Shown here: piece by piece, positions 10,601-42,200 of the stretch | How positions within the stretch are numbered: the first letter of the stretch is position 1 | Layout of the letters: each line of letters opens with the position of its first letter | Program-made: the position numbers and the translations under genes | The notes under the pieces: model-generated | Databases searched by the model: none | What the model was told of the DNA's origin: nothing | What the model saw: the letters and a program-made list of their open reading frames with translations, nothing else | DNA from: Pegea sp. RAD2-039 | Taxonomy: Eukaryota; Chordata; Thaliacea; Salpida; Salpidae | Length of the DNA: 64,000 bases | Direction of reading: 5' to 3' | Assembly (NCBI GenBank): GCA_034620365.1 | Contig: JAQGEQ010000003.1 | Span: forward strand, 496,001-560,000

Positions 10601-13600
10601 GTTACTAGATGTTGGTTAGTTACTAGGTGTTGGTTGGTTGCTAGGTGTTTGTTAGTTACTAGGTGTTGGTTGGTTGCTAGGTGTTTGTTAGTTACTAGGT
10701 GTTAGTTGGTTACTAGGTGTTTGTTGGTTGCTAGGTGTTTGTTGGTTACTAGGTGTTGGTTGGTTACTAGGTGTTTGTTGGTTGCTAGGTGTTGGTTGGT
10801 TGCTAGGTGTTGGTTGGTTGCTAGGTGTTGGTTGGTTGCTAGGTGTTTGTTGGTTGCTAGGTGTTTGTTGGTTGCTAGGTGTTTGTTGGTTGCTAGGTGT
10901 TTGTTGTTTACTAGATGTTGGTTGGTTGCTAGGTGTTTGTTGGTTGCTTGGTGTTGGTTGGTTGCTAGGTGTTGGTTGGTTGCTAGGTGTTTGTTGGTTG
11001 CTAGGTGTTTGTTGGTTGCTAGGTGTTTAATGGTTACTAGATGTTGGTTGGTTGCTAGGTGTTTGTTGGTTACTAGGTGTTTGTTGGTTGCTAGGTGTTT
11101 GTTGGTTACTAGATGTTGGTTGGTTGCTAGGTGTTGGTTGGTTGCTAGGTGTTGGTTGGTTGCTAGGTGTTTGTTGGTTGCTAGGTGTTTAATGGTTACT
11201 AGATGTTGGTTAGTTGCTAGGTGTTTAATGGTTACTAGATGTTGGTTGGTTGCTAGGTGTTTGTTGGTTACTAGGTCTTTGTTGGTTGCTAGGTGTTGGT
11301 TGGTTGCTAGGTGTTTGGTTGGTTGCTAGGTGTTTGTTGGTTGCTAGGTGTTTGTTGGTTGCTAGGTGTTTGTTGGTTGCTAGGTGTTTGTTGGTTGCTA
11401 GGTGTTTGTTGGTTGCTACTAGGTGTTTGTTGGTTGCTAGGTGTTGGTTGGTTGCTAGGTGTTGGTTGGTTGCTAGGTGTTGGTTGGTTGCTAGGTGTTG
11501 GTTGGTTGCTAGGTGTTGGTTGGTTGCTAGGTGTTTGTTGGTTACTAGGTGTTTGTTGGTTGCTAGGTGTTTGTTGGTTGCTAGGTGTTTGTTGGTTGCT
11601 AGTTGTTTGTTGGTTGCTAGGTGTTTGTTGGTTACTAGGTGTTTGTTGGTTACTAGGTGTTTGTTGGTTGCTAGGTGTTGGTTGGTTACTAGGTGTTTGT
11701 TGGTTGCTAGGTGTTGGTTGGTTGCTAGGTGTTGGTTGGTTGCTAGGTGTTTGTTGGTTGCTAGGTGTTGGTTGGTTGCTAGGTGTTGGTTGGTTGCTAG
11801 GTGTTTGTTGGTTGCTAGGTGTTGGTTGGTTGCTAGGTGTTGGTTGGTTGCTAGGTGTTTGTTGGTTTGGTGTTTGTTGGTTGCTAGGTGTTTGTTGGTT
11901 GCTAGGTGTTGGTTGGTTGCTAGGTGTTGGTTGGTTGCTAGGTGTTGGTTGGTTGCTAGGTGTTTGTTGGTTACTAGGTGTTTGTTGGTTGCTAGGTGTT
12001 TGTTGGTTGCTGGGTGTTTAATGGTTACTAGATGTTGGTTGGTTGCTAGGTGTTTGTTGGTTGCTAGGTGTTTGTTCTAGGTGTACTAGGTGTTTGTTGG
12101 TTACTAGGTGTTTGTTGGTTGCTAGGTGTTTGTTGGTTGCTAGGTGTTTGTTGGTTGCTAGGTAGTTGCCTTAGTCGCTTGCTTACTTGGCAACTTTTAG
12201 TATAATTGAACAACTCGATTAATTACAGGAACGAAGTAGAAGTCCAAAACATATGAGTCGAAAAAAGAAGAAAACTTCGAAATATGAAAGGAAGCCTCAA
12301 GACACAGAAGAATTTGTTCACATTGATAAACAATTACCTGATCCTGGTGAGTTTATTCAGTTTCAACTCTTTTTAAACTGATAACAACAAATTTGTAGCA
12401 AGAACAGAAGAAGAACGGCAACTATTGATGGTAATTGATATGTATAGCGGTCTTTCCAACAATAAAAGGCAATATGCTGGACATTGTAAGTTGAAATATC
12501 CTTAATCTTCAAATATCTTCTAGAAATTTGCACAATAAGTTTGAAAGCAACAAATTGCATGCCTTCAGAAAGAGAACATAATTGTTGATTTCTACTTTCG
12601 TTGTTCTGCAACTTTTCTTGTTAAATATTTTCAGTTTATTTGCATGTCTTTTATCATTTGTCAAATTATCTTCAGTTTTGTGAAATTCAGTTCACTTTTC
12701 TAATAATCCAAATTTACAATTGTTGCAGTGATTCCATTGTAATTGGTTGATATTTGTAACCAATCAAATAATCGATTTATTCTAAATCTGTACCAGATAA
12801 ACCAAGAAATTGAAATTTACAAACCACAATTTGGTCAATAAAAACCAAATTTGTCAAAGCAGAAATCTTTCCATAAATTTTTCATTTCTTATCTCAAAAT
12901 CGTTCTCTCTATCGCCGCTAGTGGCGACAGAACGCGCGATGAGCAAAACAGCTGTCTATTAAACAGATTTTCATTTGTTGTAGACACTAACAGACCTAGT
13001 AAGACCCTTTCCTCGTTGTTTTATATTGCTATCTCATTTCAAATTGGATAAAAACTTAAATGTCTTTTATCAACCTTTGAAACAGAAATGTGATTTGTTT
13101 GTAGATTACTTGCCAGTTATCTCGTGGCCTTGTATGTTTAAAGCAATAAAAATTTATAAACTGACTTTACATTGCTTACGACTTTGACTTGAGACAGTTT
13201 TGTAGAAAGAGACTGACTAGTAGTAAGACAGCTAGCTAGATGATTACTCTCTCTTCGTTTGAAAGTGATAATTTGTCGGCCCTTTCAGATATGCCATCAA
13301 GAAATCATCATCATTCGATCCTTGACGAGAAGTTAATAGTGGAAGATGCAGACAACGGCACCTTGATAGCTGAGAAGTAATTTAAACTTTTTTTTTTATC
13401 ATTTTATTAATTTTTTTTATCTTTTAGGAGTTTGATTGATACAGTTTATGAACTTAAAGATCAGATGAATCAACTTTTACAGGTAATTTCTATTTTTATT
13501 CCACTTTTTCCCCAACTTAATCTTCTTTTAGGAGCACAAGAAGCTACGTAAGCAGGTGGAAGAAGAAAGCAAAGCTCGTTTACATCTAGAAGCTATTATT

Positions 13601-13636
13601 AGAAGGTTGGATCCAGTTCCACAGGCTACATCATAA
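7697..13636 (+). CDS. ARHGEF7: PIX-type Rho guanine nucleotide exchange factor (ARHGEF6/7-like)
   Basis: Fifteen exons: 7697-7792, 7900-8008, 8247-8514, 8565-8702, 8758-8938, 8995-9138, 9206-9371, 9428-9594, 9638-9713, 9768-9898, 12229-12346, 12399-12485, 13289-13376, 13428-13482, 13532-13636. They sum to 1929 nt (642 aa), close to mammalian beta-PIX. An SH3 domain lies near residues 7-64 ([25 protein letters not shown]). A DH domain follows at about 85-270 ([27 protein letters not shown]) and a PH domain at about 285-395 ([25 protein letters not shown]). Next come WSQWCLRPS, a basic stretch and a C-terminal coiled coil ([18 protein letters not shown]). The family activates Rac/Cdc42 and binds PAK through SH3 and GIT through the C-terminal region. 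No CH domain precedes the SH3, as in short beta-PIX. The apparent stop after 8514 is removed by a 50-nt intron (8515-8564). The start is the first ATG after an acceptor at 7688-7689. An alternative last exon lies at 14426. Confidence 0.95.
9899..12172 (+). repeat. Intronic 18-bp minisatellite in PIX intron 10
   Basis: About 125 tandem copies of an 18-bp unit (GGTTGGTTGCTAGGTGTT and variants with TGTTGG, TTACTAGG or TTACTAGAT). The array fills most of the intron 9899-12228 and begins directly at the donor (CTG|GTCAGTTGCTAGGTG). Some units are shortened to 14 bp. A higher-order period of about 374 bp is visible: the variant CTAGATGTTGGTTAGTTACT occurs at 10231 and again at 10605. Because 18 is a multiple of 3 and the unit lacks stops in two frames, long spurious open frames (VARCLL or LGVCWL repeats) run through it. 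Confidence 0.95.
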
Positions 13637-13923
13637 AATTCTAATCAAAAGCATGAACATCATACCTAGAGTGATTCACTTCTTAAACCGAGTTTTTTTT
13701 TGATATTTTTTCAACTGAATCATCTATCATGTTGTGATATATCATAAATCTTGATATTTTATTTCAACCAATTATGTTAATAGAAACCATATTTTTAAAA
13801 ACTACATTTTATTTCAACAATTTAATTTCTTTTTAAAATATTTTTGAGGTGCTAACCAATTTTATTTAGAAACAAGTTTTTGTTACCGTGTGCCTAACAA
13901 TTCAGATTTTTGTTTGCGTAGCC

Positions 13924-24235: not shown

Positions 24236-27200
24236 ATGAAAAACTTTCAACTTCTGCTTCCCTTCATTTTCGTTTTTGGTGAGTTAGGTGATTTATGAAT
24301 GAATTAAAATTGAATTTTTTTTTGAAAAAAAGTCATTTTAGTCGTTTTTAATCCTAAAAATAAAAGGGAGAAAGCAAATGATGAAAGTCACGTGACTTGA
24401 AAACTGATAATTTTAACGTGCCCTTCTTAAAAGATTTCGGCCTAAATCTTTTGTTACTGGATTATCCCTAGGTCTTTCTTATGTGACGTCACTATTCTAT
24501 CTATGACGAATGAATATGTGACGTCACTAAAGCTCTTCACGATAAATCGTAAGAATGGAAATGGTCAGATTTGTAATTGGTCGAATTTTAAGCAAATGTT
24601 TCTGGTTATAGTAACAAGGTTAACGAGTTGTTGATTGGCCAATAGTAACGCGAATCTATGACGTATGTTATGTCGATATTTCAAAACTATTGAAAGTTAG
24701 TTTTTTTTGCTTTTTGCAAAAATATTTGACAATTAAATGACAAAGTTCAACGTTCGTTATTAAAAAAATAGCGTTGAAAACGCGACAGGGCCCCCAGATA
24801 GCCGAAAAATTAGTAAACTATTCTAATGATTCCATCTTACTCTCTAATAAATCATCTTCTGGTGTTTTAGGGTCATCGGGAACCTCCATTCAACAAAATT
24901 TTAACGACTCAATACTTCTGACTCGTTACGACAAATATAATGACGTCATCTACGCTGGTTCAGTCGACGCTTTGTACAAACTAAGCGCTAAAAACATCTC
25001 AAATGTTCTTGGGACGGTAATCACTTCAATTATTTTGTGTCAAACAACTTATTGGTCTGTTTTGATTATACTAAGAGCGGAACGAATATTCTATGAAATT
25101 TTTGTTGCTATGTAAGATATCGGTTGCTATGTGAGATGTCGGTTGCTATGTGATATATCGGTTGCTATGTGAGATGCAGGTTGCTATGTGAGATGTCGGA
25201 TGCTATGTGAGATGTCGGTTGCTATGTGAGATGTCGGATGCTATGTGAGATGTCGGTTGCTATGTGAGATATCGGTTGCTATGTGAGATGTCGGATGCTA
25301 TGTGAGATGTCGGTTGCTATATGAGATGTCGGTTGCTATGTGAGATATCGGTTGCTATGTGAGATGAGGGTCGCTATGTGAGATGTCGGTTGCTATGTGA
25401 GATGTAGGTTGCTATGTGAGATATCGGTTGCTATGTGAGATATCGGTTGCTATGTGAGATGAGGGTCGCTATGTGAGATGTCGGATGCTATGTGAGATAT
25501 CGGTTGCTATGTGAGATGTCGGTTGCTATGTGAGATATCGGTTGCTATGTGAGATGTCGGTTGCTATGTGAGATGTCGGATGCTATGTGAGATCGGTTGC
25601 TATAGATGTCGGTTGCTAGTGAGATATCGGTTGCTATGTAAGATGTCGGTTCGGTTTCAATTTCATGAAAGTTTTGACAAGAAAGTTGAGATCAATTTTG
25701 ATAATGTCTCAATCATTATTTTCAATTTGGAGTTCCTGTCACTTGCGTTGATTGACGTTTTCTCCTTAAAGTCAGAAGTTTGAATCAAACATAAGTTTCA
25801 GCTGTTCCTACAAATTAACAAATTTCAATTTGGCAACTCTTTATTCCGCAGATTAAATGGAACAGCAACGTAGAGATGGAAACAACTTGCAGAAACTTTC
25901 AGGATGACGTGAGTAATGACGTCACACGCAATAATGACATCACTAATATGATGATTTCAGTATCTATGTCGAAATCATGTAATCCTCATCAATCAGATCA
26001 ATTCATCCCAAATCAGAGCTTGCGGAACAGCATCTTTTAGTCCATATTGCTGCTTCATCGACACTGATGTTAGTTTGTGACGTCATCAGTGCATGTGACG
26101 TCATCAACGTTTTTTAGAGCTTTGAAATGGTGTCGTGTGCAAAAGCAATTTGGTCACTTCCGTTTCGACCATCAGCGAGCGTTTTCGCGGATATATCCGG
26201 GGACAAAGTAGCAACCTTGATGTACGCTGGTTTCTATGGTGACATGCCCTATGTTTCGGTGACCAGTGCCACCAATAACGTCTATTCAAATAGAATCAAA
26301 ACTGACGACGATTACGATTACTTCAACGGTTACCATGACAACATGACGTCATAATTCGCATGCTCATTGTTTGTTTGTAGAAGCGGGATTAGGTGGGATG
26401 TACATCCGGAAAACAAGATCGAGAAGACATGAGAAGGGATACTTCTTCTTCCATGAACGTGCGCGCGAATCATCTTCCTTCGCTTTGGGGATTTCCCCGT
26501 ATAAAGATGACTATGTCTTCCGCATCAGAGCTGCTTCCATTTGCTTGGTGAGACTTCTGCAGCGCGTGATGACGTCATCAAAGTAATTTGTGATGTAGAA
26601 TGACATCGGAGGGACTGGACGCGACTGGAAGCGACGCTTGACAAGTTTCGAAGCCGTTTCAATGATATGCGCGTCAAGAGAAGGCGGCTACATCCCACAT
26701 TACCAGCACTACAATCACATCAGTGAGTGATGACGTCATATAGCGGTGATGACGTCATCTGTATATTTTAGAACAAACTCATTTGATTGAGAATGAAGAA
26801 GATGAACAAAATCCGATGGTGGTCGGACTCTTCGCCAGGTGAGAGTTTTTATGACGTCATCACATACTGACGTCATCACATACAGTGAAGACGGAAAGTC
26901 ATCTGCGATCTGCGTGTATAACTTCCAGGACATTCAATGGAAATTGGACAGCCGTGAATACTGGAAACATCCGTCAGACCCTCAATCTGATAAGTTATAT
27001 ATGAGAGACAATTCACATGAAGATGAATGTCCGAATCACATGTTATCACAGAGCAGGTGAAAAGATCAGATCATTTCAATCAGATGATCTTATTTTATCC
27101 ATAGGATCGACTTCAAAGTTAATCACAAGATCAAGGCTGGATTTGTGAGATCATTGTTTGATCACGCGGTTTACCATGACAACCAGAAACTCTTCACAAG

Positions 27201-30200
27201 CTTTACTTTTCACCAGACTTCTGAGTTCGTTCATCTGTTACTTGCAAGTGGTGAGATGTGACGTCATTACTTCGCGTGTTTGTCCCTTGAAGCCAAAAAT
27301 ACAATGAAAAAGGCTTTTAAAAGCCGATCGATTGAAGTATTACAGACGAATTTCAAGATATTTCCCATTTTCTATTTTCGTTTTTAATATTTTGGTGTTA
27401 AAGTTGAATATTTGATATTTTGAAGAGTTTCTATCTTTATAATTTTCACTAAAAGTAGTTTTTATTTTGAATTAATTTGAAAATTTATCAAAAACTTTTT
27501 ACATTCTGTTGCAAGCTTCATCACTTTCAAATATTTTTCAAAACAAAATTTGATGTTTTTATCCAAAAACTAGAAATATTGATTGATAAAAACTTGGACA
27601 TTCAACTTCCAAAACTGCTATTCAACTTTTCAAGATCTAAAAACTGAAAACTCATAAATATTTCAACAAACGCAGAAAAGCTATTTCATTTTTTATGCTT
27701 AAGCGATTATCTCTGTCACCAAAACACAAACTCTCGCTATTTGAGTAATTCCATCAAAAGTTTGAAGTTTTATATTCAATCAATTTTGTTGACTTGACAG
27801 ACGACGGTCTGGTCAGAAGAGTCCTACTACACTCATCTAATTTGGCTCATGAACCAAGGGCTCCACTATATACAGTTCTTCCCGACTACATTCCTGTGAG
27901 TAATGATCTTCTACAAAACTTAATCATGTGACGATATCTGATATTAAAAGTTATATTTTAAGAGCCAAGATGCCAAGCCAGTTTTAAAAGGACTCTTACA
28001 ACTGGAATCAAGCTTTGTTGTGGGTGTTGGTTCGACTTTGTACCAGAGGTCCGAGCCTGGTTGTGATAATTATCAAAACTGTTCAATTTGTAACTCTGAT
28101 TATTGGTGCATTTGGTCAGAAAAGAAGGAAGTTTGTGAGATGGCAACTGAAAAGTAAATATTAAATTTTTTCACTTTACAATTCAGTTATTTCATTCTTG
28201 ATTTCTAGTATAGAGTTTAGTTTTCATTACTACATTTCCGTAAAATCATTGTTGAAATCAATCAAACTTTTATGGCGTTTGACATTATTGGCATGTAATT
28301 TATTCTGTTAAAAGCAATTAGCGAAGGGACAATACTTATCGCCAAAAAGAATCTGTTAACAAGCTAACTTCCTGATAACAATCTTTTTTTAGCAACTAAC
28401 TGTTTTTTGTTTTTTTATGTAGTTTCGAGGTAAAACCAACATGTACGACAAAGCCAGGTATTTTGTGTTGAATGATTTAAAAACTAGAAAATAAAAATAA
28501 ACTCTTATAAAACAATTCTGACAAATATATGAGTTTGGATGACTCAAGTACTTTTTAATATTGATTTTGTAATTGAATCTTTCAAAATGTTTACATCGAT
28601 TTTACTGCTTTATTTTTAGAACCTAAATAAGCTACAAATAGTTTGAATAAAAAGATCAATTCGTTACAATTTTTAAAGTTTTGCTTCAGTTACTTCAATT
28701 TCTTAAATCTTTTTTTTCTTTAATAGTTGAAGAAGTCAACACAACTGAATCATCGCATAATAGGTATGTATCCTTTATTGAGTTTTATACATGGTCATTA
28801 CGCTGACCACATCCTTTTTTATTGCTAAAAATGTAGAATTAGGTTTAAAAAATTGAGAAGAAATGAAAAACTCAGGTAGAGTGCATGACTGTCGAACAAA
28901 CGAAAAATGTTTATAGTAAATTGTTTCAAAACAGGGATTTTCCCTGCTGAATATCATTTAAATTATTTAGTTGCTTGAATTAATGTTGACTGTTCAACTG
29001 TTTGCATCCTTTTCAACCGGTTTTGTTTTTAAAATGTTTTTTTTTCACTCAAGCAACTCCTAATGGTTTGTTTATTATTTCAGAACTGACGAACTAAAAG
29101 AAGCCACCTCAAAGTCAAAACACTTTGAGCGTGATTTAGGATTATGTCGTCAGCAACTGAAACATATGAAAGGTTGGAGCGAAGGCGAGATTGTGAAGAT
29201 GAAATCAATCATCGATGAGAAGACCTTAGAGCTTGAAACGTGCTCCAATGAGAGTCTAGATCAATCAGAAGAATTTCGAAAAACTAAAATCGGTAAGTGA
29301 TGATGAAGTTCAAGAACTGTCTTTTGCATTTCATATTAGACAGAGACTTATAAATCATTAAAGTCGATTTTAGTCATGACATCATGTCTGCAAAAATTCC
29401 TCAGCTTCTAGTCACGTGGTTACGGTGTTGTTTAGTTATTTCCAGACGTTTAGAAGATTTGAAAAAAAAAGTTTTAAACTTGAAGTATTTTAGCTAAACA
29501 CAATTGGCTCATTGAGTTGAAGGGTTTCTTGAAAAGATGACGTAAACAAACACGAACAAAGATGTTTACAAGATTTGAAAATATTTTTTTTTGTGTTTTT
29601 AACAGATTTAGATGATAGATATGAAAGTGCTCAAGTAAAACTGGATTCCTTAAGAGAAGAAATCCTATCAATAAAATTAGGTTTCAAAGATAAACTAAAC
29701 AGTAAATGTTCCACAAACAATAATTATGAGAAGAATTTGACTTCAGTCTGCGGTAAGTATCAAAATTCATCATCAAACTCAGCACTTCACCGAAAATTGA
29801 TCAGATTGCCGAACTAACATCGTCAGTCGTGGCTTTGGATGGTTCTATGATCGTAGAAGTCAAAATAAATACTTTATTAGCGAGAAGATGGTGTCTTTTG
29901 ATGGAGGGAAACGATTTTGTGAACGATTGGGAACTCAAATGGCAAGCTTGATTGATAACAAAAAAGGGTAAGGTTGTGACGTCATGTTGTCATGGTTTCC
30001 AACAAACTTTGTGTGATAGATTTATCAAAAAGATGGTCAACTCAATCAAACCAAATTGGCGGATTTGGGTGGATTTCCGAACAAAAGTAACTAAAAAACA
30101 GGATGAGACAGACAAAGAAGATGTTGACAAATATACTGAACCGTCAGTCCTTAAAAAGCTGAAACTTATTTGAATTGTCAACAATCTTTTTTTTTGCAGA

Positions 30201-30421
30201 GCTTTTAAATGTTTGCAGTTAGCTAAGAATGGAAAATGGGACCTAACACATTGTCTGAAACCAGCTCATCCAATTTGCCGCAAAAGTAGGGACCCCCTCT
30301 TTGAGTTCGTCAATTATTCAAATTTCATTTTGCAGTCGGTAGACGATTCGCGGTAAAGAACGCCATTAAAGTGATTAAGAGGTCAATCCGAAGACAGAAA
30401 CTTGAACCTGACATAGACTAG
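24236..30421 (+). CDS. Secreted semaphorin with coiled-coil neck and C-type-lectin-like domain
   Basis: Twenty exons: 24236-24278, 24772-25016, 25852-25908, 25961-26068, 26118-26328, 26381-26547, 26599-26722, 26772-26838, 26886-27056, 27105-27250, 27801-27895, 27963-28153, 28423-28457, 28727-28763, 29084-29292, 29606-29752, 29805-29967, 30020-30142, 30200-30285, 30336-30421. Total 2511 nt, 836 aa, phases consistent throughout. A signal peptide (MKNFQLLLPFIFVF) precedes a sema domain at about 60-480 (VIYAGSVDALYKLSA; CGTASFSPYC; GYFFFHERARE; NDIGGTGRDWKRRLTSFEAV; SSAICVYNFQDI). A PSI domain lies at about 511-540 (CDNYQNCSICNSDYWCIW). A charged heptad-like region (565-680) leads to a C-type-lectin-like domain at 685-808 (GFGWFYDRRSQNKYF; FCERLGTQMASLID; W at WRIWVDF; NGKWDLTHCLKPAHPICRK) and a basic tail. 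No EPN/QPD or WND calcium motif is clear. No transmembrane segment is seen. The family binds plexins; the lectin module is the odd part. Confidence 0.88.
25105..25655 (+). repeat. 19-bp minisatellite in semaphorin intron 2
   Basis: Roughly 28 tandem copies of GTTGCTATGTGAGATGTCG, with variants GATATCG, GATGAGG and GATGTCGGA, in the intron 25017-25851. This array starts about 90 nt after the donor rather than at it. Copies near the right end are truncated and degenerate. Confidence 0.93.
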
Positions 30422-30951
30422 ATCTTTCTAGATAGTTTCTAATGTTATTTCGTTGTTTTTATTCCGAACTCTTTTTACTTTGCTTCTAATTTCAAGCACA
30501 CAATTGAAAACCCGACAACAAAGCCGCCGTAAGCCCTGATCGATGCAATTGTGGTTTTATATGTTCCAGCTTCTCTTGTCTCTTGCCCTGTCTTGCACTG
30601 ACTGCTTCAAAAATCTTTAAAATCTTGAATTCTTAAACGCCGGATTTTGAAATATTGCTAATTAAGATTCAAAAACTGTTTCACAAAAATCTTTTCAGTT
30701 GAAGTTTGATACATCTTTAGTTTTTATAATATTCATTTCTAACATAAAAATTAGTAATTTCTGATTTACAACTATCAAACAATCATAAAAATAAAAAAAA
30801 TGACAAAAAAATCTTCCAACAAACTTTGCAGAAGGGAAATTTCAGATTTAAAACTGTGATTATATCTATATTGGATGAACCTTTTTATTTTTGTTTAAAT
30901 GTTTGTAAAGATTGTATTTGAAGTGAATGATTGTTTGATGTATTTACTTGA

Positions 30952-30957
30952 AATAAA
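30952..30957 (+). terminator. Poly(A) signal, semaphorin gene
   Basis: AATAAA in TTGAAATAAAATAG, about 530 nt after the stop at 30419-30421. No closer canonical signal was noticed. Confidence 0.5.
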
Positions 30958-36216: not shown

Positions 36217-39200
36217 ATGGATCTTTTTGATGGACATAATATCTTATTTATCTTCGGATTTATAGCAACAACTTTAATGATTGTGGTTTTTTCAATTTTC
36301 AAGTAAACCAATTTAATCATCATTAAATTCTCATAAATTTAATATTTTTATTAAAACTTTTCAAATAAATATATAATCGAATTATCTGATGTTTATAATT
36401 TGTTTCAGCATGAAAGGAACCAAGTTTGAAGATGTTGTTGAAGCCCAGAGAAAGAAGCAACAAAAGGAAGAAAAAGAACGAAGTAAGGCTAATAAACAAA
36501 AGCGGGAACATTATAAGCAGAAACTGAACAAAAAGAAGAAGAATCAGACTGCTGGTTCGTATTTAAACGTTAGCATCAAATCAGAACATATCTTCAAGCA
36601 ACAAATTTTCAGATGGACAAAAGGCGGAAAATGGGAACAAGAAGAAGACAAAGGGAAAGAAACAGGAGGAAAAAATTGAGTTGGTTGTTGCTGAAGAAGT
36701 CGTTGAGAGTGTAGTGAGTTAAACTTGTAAACAAATATTCATTTGAGCTTGAAACTATTTCATCTGCAGCCTATCAAAGCGGAACCAGTTGTAGAAGTCC
36801 CTGTCGTTGAACCTCCAGTAGAGGCTGTTGCTGAAGAAGTTGTCGTTCCCGTTGTAGCTCCAGTGGAAATTAAAGAAGAAGTGAAAGAGGTTCCTGCTCC
36901 AGAAAAAGTAGTTGATCTTCCTGTTGAAGATACTCAAAAAAATAAGAAGAAGAAAGTGAAGAAAGTTGGTGAGTACCTCTTTGATGTTATTTGATCAAGT
37001 TGAAAAACATCCATCTACAGATGAACAGTCTCGGCTCTTATTTGATCTTGTGGAAACTACTGAGCTAACTCCTAAAGCTTATCTCTCTTTACTTCGGACT
37101 TTATCAGCAAAATCGAATAACTCTCAGTGGAAATCAGTGAGATACAAGCTTGGTTTTAAACATTTAACAACTAACCACTCTCTCTACAGAGCGATTTGTC
37201 TGTAGAAGATGCCAAAAAGCAAATAGAAGATGCAAATACGAAGATATCTGATTATGAGAAGCAGCTGAAAACCAATATGGAGTCAATTAAGGCATTTGAA
37301 CAACAAATAGTGGTTTTAAAGGAGGTTGGTTGGATGTTTAGTGATTAAAAAGATGTTTCTACTTCAACTTCTCAGGCTTCATCAGCTGATAAAGCTGAGC
37401 ATGACCGGCTCTCTCAGGCTCTTACCCTCTCTACTGCAGCTAATGATGATTTAAAGAAGAAAATGGAATTACTAATCGAAACAGAAAAGAATAAATTTGT
37501 TGTTTTGGAGGTAGATACCATTTACCAGCAACAATTAGTTACATGTAATGTTTCAGAACCAGCTGAAGAGCGCTGTTTTAAGTGAAGATAAGTTGAAGAA
37601 GCTTGAAGAGGAGAACGACATCTTTAAACAAACCATTCAAGCAAATGCGCGAGAGTCAGTTACATGTTGATGACGTTTCATCTCTTCATGTGCTTATCGT
37701 CACAGGGTTGGTGAGAAGCAGAAGTTGGCTGTTGAAGTCACATCTCTCAAGTCACAAGTGTCTTCTTTACAAAATAAAAACAACGAATTGCTTGCTAAAC
37801 TAAAAGACACTGAGGTAGATTTGAGAAGAAAAAAATTTTAATTTGTAAAAAAAAGTAGATTTTTGATGACATTTTCGATAACATCGATTTTGTCAATTCA
37901 TCTAAATTTCATCATTTTATTTTTTAACTTGGGCCATTTTGTTAATACGCCAAAAATGCCTCTTCAACTTTTTTAATATGTTGGTTTGGGGTTCAGGCGG
38001 CCGAGGAAGCAAATTATAACAAACGGATCGAAGAATTGACTGAAAAATTGAAAGAAGCTGAGACACAAAACAGTTCTCTAGAAAATGAGTTTCAGAAAGC
38101 TATAAATGATCTTCAGATTAAAGAGGTAGTTGATATTGGGGGTGAATTACAATCAACAGCAAGTTGCTACTCGCAGGAGGAGTCTAGCAAGTTGTTAGTT
38201 CAAATCACGTCACTCAGTGACGTCAATGAGTCTAGAGCAAATATTGAAAATGATATGATAAAACAAAACGAAGTGTTATCTTCACTTGAACAACGACTTG
38301 CAGAAATGGATGAGAATGAAGCAAGACGAAGTGAAGAATTGGCTGTGAGTACCTCTACTTGCTGCTGGTTCAACTCCCTCACACTAACTGCATGACCTTT
38401 CACTCTAACGCTTACTAATAATATTTCGGACATTTTTGTAAAACGCCAAATTACGACTGCATGCTCTTAATATAGTAAGTAAGCGAACGTGGCTTGGATT
38501 CCGCCAATCAGAAAGCAGTAAATTTTGAGTTAACTTTTAAAGATGATAAATTAGCATATAAGACCTCATTTGCATGTCGCTCATCACATCTTTCGCTTGC
38601 CATCGCTCGTTTTTAACCAGTGACGTCATCAGCCCCTTTCTCCTATAGAGCTTGCAAGTCAGCAAAGCGACCATGACGTCACAACTGGCAGCGTTAGAAG
38701 CAGAAAAAAGCAATTTGAAAAAAAGTTTAGAGGAAGCCGAAGCGAAGGTACTTGTTCGTCTCGCGCTGTAGCGGTGATGACGTCATAAACTGTATCGCGA
38801 CTCACCTGTTGTCATAACAGGCTTCAGCTGTTAAGGACCTAACAACGAAGCTAGAAACAGTGACGTCAGAACGCGATGAAGCACGATCAGAGGTGATGAA
38901 AGAAAAAAAGGTTGGTGATGATGTCATGAAGACTGACGTCATTTGTGGTAATGACGTGTTTGTAGAAATCAGAGACAGAAATGTTGAAGATGTCGACAAA
39001 GATCAATGAATTAAGATCGGATGCAGAGCGGATGACAAAAGAAGTTTTGACGGCGAAAGAGGTAAGATCTGATCTTTCATGATCTTCTTCTTTCATGATC
39101 TGATCTTTCATGATCTTCATCTTTCATGATCTGATCTTTCATGATCTTCATCTTTCATGATCTCATCTTTCATGATCTCATCTTTCATGATCTGATCTTT

Positions 39201-42200
39201 CATGATCTGATCTTTCATGATCTTCATCTTTCATGATCTTCATCTTTCATGATCTGATCTTTCATGATCTTCATCTTTCATGATCTTCATCTTTCATGAT
39301 CTTCATCTTTCATGATCTTCATCTTTCATGATCTGATCTTTCATGATCTGATCTTTCATGATCTCATCTTTCATGATCTTTATCTTTCATGATCTGATCT
39401 TTCATGATCTCATCTTTCATGATCTGATCTTTCATAATCTCATCTTTCATGATCTCATCTTTCATGATCTTCATCTAATTTCTCTTTTTCTAGAACACCG
39501 AAGACACGATCCCACTTCCCACTCACAACTTCATGTAAGTCGGTTGCTATTGGTTACTGACGCGAAATGACGTCACGATCCTTGAACAGGTTGAAAGAGA
39601 AAGAAGAAGAGATGGAAGATCTAAACAAGAAGATAACAAAATTATCATCTGAAGTTGAAGAGCTGAAATCAAAGAACAATGTAAGTTGGTTGGCTGGTTG
39701 CTTGGTGATGGTTGGTAGCTGGTTGTTGCTTCTAGAATCTTCGGGAGAAGAATTGGAAAGCGATGGATGCAGTCGCGGTAACTGAAGAGAACGCGCGATC
39801 CAAAATTACCCATCTTCAGGTCCTAATTAGCGCCAATTTGTAAAAGAACATTTTTGTTTCGACCACGTGACCAGCACCGCGCGTATCGTGCCGATGACGT
39901 TTTGATGACGTCATTCGATTACTTACAGGGCCAAGTGAGTGGTGTACAGTCGAGCGTTAAGTCGTCTTTGTCGCAAGCGTTCCCGGATGCGAGTAGCGAC
40001 GCTGAAGACTTCGATTTGTGGCTAAGCGCCTTTGTTTCGAGCGTTACAAGTTCGGTTACTTCCGGTCAGCAGTGCAAGGTGATTGTTTGTGACGTCATCG
40101 GCGCGATAGCTGATTTAACTTCTCAGGAGCTGGAAGAGAAGGAAGAAAAGATGAATGTTAAACTATCAGCGTTACAGACGTCGCTAGATAGCGCTCTCCA
40201 AAGAAGCAAAATTACTGAAGCTGAACTGGAAGAGTCTAAACGGACTAATGAAGCGAAAGATTCTGCTGTTAAAACATATAAAGCAATCTTGGAAGCGACT
40301 GTAAGTTGGTGGTTGGTTGTTGATGGTTGGTTGGTTGTAGTTTGCTGGTGATGGTTGGTTGTTGATGGTTGGTTGTTGATGGTTGGTTGTAGATGGTTGG
40401 TTGTAGATGGTTGGTTGTAGATGGTTGGTTGTTGATGGTTGGTTGTTGATGGTTGGTTGTAGATGGTTGGTTGTAGATGGTTGGTTGTTGATGGTTGGTT
40501 GTAGATGGTTGGTTGTTGATGGTTGGTTGTTGATGGTTGGTTGCTGATGGTTTGTTGTAGATGGTTGGTTGTAGATGGTTGGTTGTTGATGGTTGGTTGT
40601 TGATGGTTGGTTGTTGATGGATGGTTGTTGATGGTTAGTTGTTGATGGTTGGTTGTTGATGGATGGTTGTTGATGGTTAGTTGTTGATGGTTGGTTGTTG
40701 ATGGTTGGTTGCTGATGGTTTGTTGTAGATGGTTGGTTGTAGATGGTTGGTTGTTGATGGTTGGTTGTTGATGGTTGGTTGTTGATGGTTGGTTGTTGAT
40801 GGTTGGTTGCTGATGGTTTGTTGTAGATGGTTGGTTGTAGATGGTTGGTTGTTGATGGTTGGTTGTTGATGGTTAGTTGTTGATGGTTAGTTGTTGATGG
40901 TTGGTTGTAGATGGTTGGTTGTAGATGGTTGGTTGTTGATGGTTGGTTGCTGATGGTTTGTTGGTCATGGTTGGTAGTTAATAGTTTGCTGGTCATGGTT
41001 GGTTGCTGATGGTTTGTTGTAGATGGTTGGTTGTAGATGGTTGGTTGTTGATGGTTGGTTGTTGATGGTTGGTTGTTGATGGATGGTTGTTGATGGTTAG
41101 TTGTTGATGGTTGGTTGTTGATGGTTGGTTGTAGATGGTTGGTTGTTGATGGTTGGTTGTTGATGGTTGGTTGCTGATGGTTTGTTGTAGATGGTTGGTT
41201 GTAGATGGTTGGTTGTTGATGGTTGGTTGTTGATGGTTGGTTGTTGATGGATGGTTGTTGATGGTTAGTTGTTGATGGTTGGTTGTTGATGGATGGTTGT
41301 TGATGGTTAGTTGTTGATGGTTGGTTGTTGATGGTTGGTTGCTGATGGTTTGTTGTAGATGGTTGGTTGTAGATGGTTGGTTGTTGATGGTTGGTTGTAG
41401 ATGGTTGGTTGTTGATGGTTGGTTGTTGATGGTTGGTTGCTGATGGTTTGTTGTAGATGGTTGGTTGTAGATGGTTGGTTGTTGATGGTTGGTTGTTGAT
41501 GGTTAGTTGTTGATGGTTAGTTGTTGATGGTTGGTTGTAGATGGTTGGTTGTAGATGGTTGGTTGTTGATGGTTGGTTGCTGATGGTTTGTTGGTCATGG
41601 TTGGTAGTTAATAGTTTGCTGGTCATGGTTGGTTGCTGATGGTTTGCTGGTGATGGTTGGTTGTAGATAGTTGGCTGATGGTTGGTAGCTAATAGTTTGC
41701 TGGTCATGGTTGGTTGTTGATGGCTGCTGGTCATGGTTGGTTGTTGATAGTTTGCTGTTGATGGTTGGTTGTTGATGGCTATTTATTTGTTTAGGAGCTC
41801 ACCTTATCACAATTGCAATCGTCAGTTGAAAACGAAGAATCAAAATATCAAGAAAAGATGAAGAAAAGTTCAGAAGAGTTGGAAAGACTGCAGAAGGAAC
41901 TTGAAACCTCTGAAAAGGTGAAGATCACTTTGAAATAAAATCTTTCACTAGATATCACTTTTCTTGTCAGAAATTTGAGGTTCAATCTTCAGAAGTTTCT
42001 CAACTACAGGCTGATCGCGAACAACTTCTTCTCGAAAAAGATCAGGTGAGACGCGATTTCATGACGTCATAACCAATGACATCACAACTGAATTACAGAT
42101 GAAAGTACAACTGGAAGAACTAAGCAAGTCACATATTGCGCAGGTTGGTCAATTTGTGTGTTGATTGTTTCAAATAATTTATTTCAAATCACTGCCGCCG

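Follow-up and report, generated by a model that had tools for sequence, protein, structure and literature searches.

The locus on the forward strand of contig JAQGEQ010000003.1 of the salp Pegea sp. RAD2-039 raises the question of whether a semaphorin runs on, within one polypeptide, into a coiled-coil neck and a C-type-lectin-like domain (CTLD), or whether these parts belong to separate products. The window, meaning the whole stretch of 64,000 nucleotides that was analysed, holds this gene on its plus strand, where direct reading of the DNA gives a frame of 20 exons and 803 aa, from the ATG at 24236 to a TAG ending at 30421. All 19 introns show the GT/AG borders, and the spliced frame contains no internal stop. 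The original prediction of one continuous, phase-consistent frame is thus retained, but not its size, which had been put at 836 aa. On balance, the DNA points to a single gene that probably encodes a secreted, oligomeric semaphorin with a neck, a CTLD, and a basic tail.

Exon chain and domain content

Exon 1 (24236..24278) holds the start codon and a hydrophobic N-terminus, MKNFQLLLPFIFVFG, whose core reaches a Kyte-Doolittle value of 3.0, in agreement with the signal peptide that had been proposed; its donor scores 4.9. This and all other donor and acceptor scores come from a splice matrix and are relative only. Exons 2-12 (24871..28153, plus strand) encode the sema domain and most of the PSI domain, in the segments 24871-25016, 25852-25908, and 25961-26068 (exons 2-4), 26118-26328, 26381-26547, and 26599-26722 (exons 5-7), 26772-26838, 26886-27056, and 27105-27250 (exons 8-10), and 27801-27895 and 27963-28153 (exons 11-12). 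The acceptors of exon 7 (-6.1) and exon 12 (-8.2) are weak. Intron 2 consists largely, by eye, of a tandem repeat of about 19 bases of the GGTTGCTATGTGAGATGTC type (window 25100-25660), and introns 3-8 and 17, which are short, share a recurring palindrome, TGACGTCA.

By its sema domain, the predicted protein is a semaphorin. The full 803-aa query matches the Pfam Sema family at E 2.8e-9, with 37.6 bits against a cut-off of 23.7, as had been expected for this part of the chain. In a PDB search with the full protein, residues 25-503 are collinear with Sema4D (E 1.1e-13), Sema3A coming next, and the sema-PSI part used alone gives a best semaphorin E of 5.2e-14. This shorter query matches 12 distinct PDB sequences at E ≤0.01, ten of them named semaphorins and two carrying the clone names MIP07328p and IP13724p, which are taken here to be fly semaphorins. 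The Sema4D alignment shows matching cysteines and the stretch C-x-x-D-x-GG ... TSF ... IC. The call of a PSI domain, also made in the original prediction, rests on this collinear alignment and on the five PSI cysteines that align with those of Sema4D, while the Pfam PSI score in a fragment search (16.6 bits) falls below the cut-off of 23.1. With the full 803-aa query, neither PSI nor Lectin_C appeared among the matches up to E 1; both come up in fragment searches only. No Ig family was reported in Pfam scans of the full protein, the PSI region, the neck, and the C-terminal part.

Between the PSI domain and the neck, the model places two uncertain micro-exons. Exon 13 (28423..28457, 35 nt) is phase-consistent and possibly supplies the last PSI cysteine; its donor is the 4th best of the 55 GT sites in 28100-29100, and the exon itself ranks 7th of 9 candidate internal exons. 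Exon 14 (28727..28763, 37 nt), a putative linker, has the best of the 55 scored donors and ranks 2nd of the 9 candidates, so that the choice of this pair is not unique. Together they amount to 72 nt, and the frame is kept if both are used or both are skipped, either alone breaking it. Because the end of exon 12 and the start of exon 15 are both in phase 2, the fusion of the sema and CTLD parts is in frame with or without the two micro-exons. The distance from exon 12 to exon 15 is 930 bases, similar to the other long introns of the same gene, which measure 592, 835, and 550.

The neck is encoded by exon 15 (29084..29292) and exon 16 (29606..29752), the second having the strongest heptad pattern and a symmetric phase of 1-1. 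Its 117 residues include 21 K/R and 24 D/E, no proline, and cysteines that could cross-link chains. On a simple self-made heptad score, distinct from a published coiled-coil predictor, its best 28-residue value was reached by none of 500 shuffles of the neck. A 19-residue hydrophobicity scan of the whole protein found no segment resembling a membrane anchor after the signal peptide: the best mean is 1.23 in the signal peptide and 1.03 thereafter, a value reached within the sema domain, whereas downstream of PSI it is no higher than 0.35. The hydrophilic neck thus bears out the claim that no transmembrane segment separates the parts.

The CTLD is contained in exons 17-19 (29805-29967, 30020-30142, and 30200-30285), a total of 372 nt between phase 1 introns. 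The Pfam Lectin_C family (cut-off 22.6) matches the tail, searched as the last 270 aa or as fragments of 153 and 125 aa, with 26.8, 28.3, and 29.2 bits, covering profile positions 3-107 of 107 in each of the three fragments, and none of seven shuffled copies of the tail matches it. The lectin assignment therefore holds for the fragments and not for the full-length query, which is why the match is regarded as genuine but modest. As predicted, the translated frame has six cysteines in this region and the ending WDLTHC...ICRK, and by reading, the four inner cysteines lie in the expected places. Calcium-type C-type lectins carry an EPN or QPD motif together with WND. The translated sequence reads TEPA at the EPN place and KWDL at the WND place, in line with the earlier view that clear calcium motifs are absent (EPA for EPN, WDL for WND). 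In the absence of an intact calcium site, calcium-dependent sugar binding by this predicted domain is unlikely. A PDB search with the CTLD was set aside, as it returned weak and mixed matches only (a designed helical protein at E 0.001, antibody domains, and P-selectin at E 0.38).

Exon 20 (30336..30421) adds the tail, which ends in the stop codon, contains an RSIR site, and is basic as had been claimed, with 9 K/R against 3 D/E. For the long form, a candidate poly(A) signal, AATAAA, lies at 30952..30957 on the plus strand, with another at 30790.

One transcript or two

We infer that the sema and CTLD exons lie on one transcript. The neighbouring genes are several kb away on reading of the DNA. 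The end of the upstream gene (window 12230-13640) is presumably of the SIKE/FGFR1OP2 family, judged by eye, and the next gene, starting at about 36218, reads by eye like a coiled-coil membrane protein of the kinectin/p180 type, with long simple tandem arrays in its introns at window 40300-41790 (TGGTTGGTTGTTGA type) and 39060-39480 (CTTTCATGAT type).

The main alternative, which is improbable, consists of two genes: a short secreted Sema-PSI protein and a downstream CTLD gene, possibly read as a second cistron that is trans-spliced to a spliced leader. The original prediction had stated that neither a stop nor a poly(A) signal lies between the two parts. The spliced frame is indeed free of stops, but exon 12 reads directly into one (28154..28157, the stop ending at 28157), which would give a short Sema-PSI form if the exon 12 donor were not used, and exon 13 reads into another (28458..28501, the stop ending at 28471), with a product finishing in ...TTKPGILC. 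The absence of a poly(A) signal has to be given up, as three AATAAA hexamers lie on the plus strand of the 930-base gap, at 28490, 28496, and 28646. Both these hexamers and the stops would suit an upstream gene that ends here. The acceptor of exon 15 at 29084, the best of the 47 AG sites scored in 28100-29100, would likewise suit this alternative, as would the spliced leader of the Ciona type, which occurs in 272 exact copies in the genome, against none for the reversed control. Since the presence of a spliced leader makes operons possible in this organism, the operon alternative is retained. As an observation apart, the 16-mer of the leader forms a tandem array at C4:1135044-1142217 with a spacing of about 199 bases, with further copies on other contigs among the matches listed. 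A lectin gene in its own right would also fit the abundance of CTLD stretches elsewhere in the genome; of 30 such loci retrieved, 19 have a long CTLD frame within one exon.

A lectin cistron beginning at exon 15, however, would lack a signal peptide and would meet an out-of-frame ATG at 29144 before the in-frame ATG at 29166, and the match of phase 2 to phase 2 across the gap would have to be a one-in-three coincidence. A separate signal-peptide exon was looked for with a rule calling for an ATG exon of ≥21 nt that splices directly and in frame to one of exons 13-17, with a donor of ≥-2.2 and a hydrophobic core of ≥2.0. This rule recovers the semaphorin's own exon 1 (donor 4.9, core 3.0), and finds no convincing exon for the lectin in 28154-29780, the single marginal candidate being MAFDIIGI (donor -0.8, core 2.1, joining exon 13). 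This negative result speaks for one protein. Applied to the entire gene, the same rule gives 19 rows, six of which use exon 1 itself. Weak signal-peptide-like exons within the semaphorin introns would again suit two genes: MKFLLLCKISVAI, which lies at 25093-25130 within the intron 2 tandem repeat (donor 0.8, core 2.2), could provide a signal peptide spliced to exon 15. Within exon 8, MVVGLFAS, which has a short core of 2.3 and uses the exon 8 donor (7.9), could join exon 13. The phase of exon 1 also fits exons 14, 16, and 17, so that a lectin-only splice form running from exon 1 to any of these could be made from the single gene.

Somewhat less probable again is a single gene that, through intronic polyadenylation or read-through, mainly yields the short Sema-PSI protein, with the CTLD form as a minor isoform. 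Such an outcome would be helped by the weak donor of exon 12 (-1.5, 10th of 55 in 28100-29100), a score comparable to those of three other donors of the model (between -0.9 and -2.1), and by the stops that read-through would meet, one at 28157 and another at 28471, about 19 bases 5' of an AATAAA. The hexamer is nevertheless expected about 1.5 times in the 930-base gap from base composition, against the three found; it is over-represented throughout the window (363 on both strands against 265 expected from shuffles), and exons 16 and 17 contain it as well. Being common in the window and within these exons, the signals in the gap are weak evidence for a short form.

It is very improbable that the fusion results from faulty assembly or exon prediction, or that the CTLD is a non-functional fragment in decay: the gene is a single copy seen in one assembly and its CTLD is divergent and matched in fragment searches only, but the six exons 15-20 are phase-consistent and free of stops, the four inner cysteines are kept, and the Lectin_C profile is matched end to end. 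The preferred reading, a single gene with one transcript, keeps from what had been claimed for the locus the domain parts, the in-frame fusion within a spliced frame, and the calcium site that is not intact; the statement on poly(A) signals is lost, and the single transcript is the part that is inferred.

Semaphorins, plexins, and lectin domains in the genome

The searched genome comprises 105.7 Mb in 387 contigs. A search with the whole protein returned no paralogue, with 15 of the 16 matches at this locus and one weak sema match on C259 (E 0.05), which was considered as a paralogue and turned out to be another semaphorin. Three stretches were found by a Sema family search, two of them on C1 and derived from one semaphorin, and one on C262. 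The latter probably belongs to a plexin itself, as exons of a plexin are found close by with the same orientation; plexin cytoplasmic-domain exons are present at three places in the genome, on C262, C17, and C48 (14 matches). The exon-by-exon Sema search missed both the CTLD-bearing semaphorin and the gene on C259, so more semaphorins may exist. When 10 kb of each of the C1 and C259 loci were read by eye, a hydrophobic membrane segment was seen downstream of sema and PSI in both, the C259 semaphorin having in addition an Ig-like stretch, and no CTLD was seen in either. Among the three semaphorins seen, only the CTLD-bearing one looks secreted.

Lectin_C stretches are far from rare, with at least 102 reaching E 0.001 or better among the 150 that were scored of 204 candidates. 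Clusters of CTLDs are found on C249, C250, C33, and C30, and on the first three of these the whole domain often lies in one exon, as opposed to the three-exon CTLD of the semaphorin. Shuffled modules are classically bracketed by phase 1 introns on both sides, as are the CTLD cassette of exons 17-19 and exon 16. The CTLD thus probably arose when a phase 1-1 cassette was brought in by exon shuffling, and the abundance of Lectin_C stretches offers a possible source. No close relative was recovered: a search for CTLD paralogues in the same genome found this locus only, phmmer with the semaphorin's CTLD matched none of 19 CTLD frames from the genome (those of the 30 loci L021-L050 that gave a usable long single-exon frame under the filter), and a profile seeded on the CTLD of L021 did not recover that of the semaphorin.

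Two further features of the genome were noted along the way. Two very similar single-exon PTEN-like frames of 411 aa, at C28:708384 (L057) and C75:227730 (L058), are candidates for a recent duplicate, a retrocopy, or an uncollapsed haplotype. There is also a GH6 stretch with 27.5 bits against a cut-off of 27; among animals, GH6 points to tunicates, and together with the spliced leader it was taken as a sign of an ascidian genome.

Proposed working and known counterparts

In the mechanism proposed for the single-gene product, the sema propeller would engage a plexin, while the neck and its cysteines would dimerise, trimerise, or otherwise oligomerise the chains, taking the role that the Ig domain and a tail cysteine have in class 3 semaphorins. 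Lacking an intact calcium site, the CTLD may bind a protein, be it a co-receptor, the matrix, or a microbial surface, and so fix where the cue acts. The basic tail would bind anionic matrix and may be trimmed by furin. Plexin binding, oligomerisation, and recognition of a second ligand are all putative activities of the predicted chain. A more specific version, in which plexin signalling occurs only where the CTLD has bound a particular surface (matrix, a self marker, or a microbe), or in which the CTLD regulates its own sema domain, is speculative and judged unlikely. If true, it would mean that, in an invertebrate chordate, the recognition of patterns or of self is directly coupled to signalling through plexin.

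Tunicates are the group closest to vertebrates, and a secreted tunicate semaphorin that brings its own recognition domain and an oligomerising neck would represent a different way of finding partners. According to a survey of semaphorin evolution, neuropilins are regarded as confined to vertebrates, and the secreted semaphorins of invertebrates may rely on different co-receptors (PMC6374515); the word "lectin" does not appear in the main text of this survey. The authors of a sponge study hypothesise a role of semaphorins in telling bacteria apart (PMC8242945). Within the partially covered literature on semaphorins, lectin domains, and tunicate semaphorins, no report of a semaphorin with a CTLD was found. 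Ciona has a gene named Sema3a, KH.C10.17 (PMC11728170).

Class 3 semaphorins are secreted and carry a basic tail with a furin-like R-x-x-R site. With Sema3A and its relatives, the salp protein shares the Sema domain and a putative PSI domain, the lack of a membrane segment, a basic C-terminal tail, and a furin-like R-x-x-R site, so that it has their secreted, basic-tailed form, provided that exon 20 is spliced in. It differs in what follows the PSI domain, where a coiled-coil neck and a CTLD are found instead of an Ig domain, and because no Ig domain was found, the predicted protein is not a class 3 semaphorin. Class 4 semaphorins provide the best PDB sequence match, Sema4D being collinear across sema and PSI; here, however, neither an Ig domain nor a membrane segment was found, and a CTLD is present.

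The beta-propeller of attractin is of the kelch type. This protein resembles the predicted salp semaphorin, with its putative PSI, in combining a beta-propeller, PSI, and a CTLD in a single chain, whereas the salp protein has a sema propeller and a coiled-coil neck, with neither CUB nor EGF reported by the Pfam scans. In a table row of PMC11788884, attractin and attractin-like 1 pair PSI with Lectin_C.

CD72, which also has a neck, is a CTLD protein already present in semaphorin biology. In PMC6175988, it is described as a CTLD receptor for which Sema4D/CD100 is a reported ligand. That the salp protein, joining cue and receptor in one chain, is a covalent counterpart of the Sema4D-CD72 pair is an analogy that would hold only with low probability. 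CD72 is a protein of its own, a type II membrane receptor, whereas the CTLD studied here is predicted to lie within the semaphorin chain.
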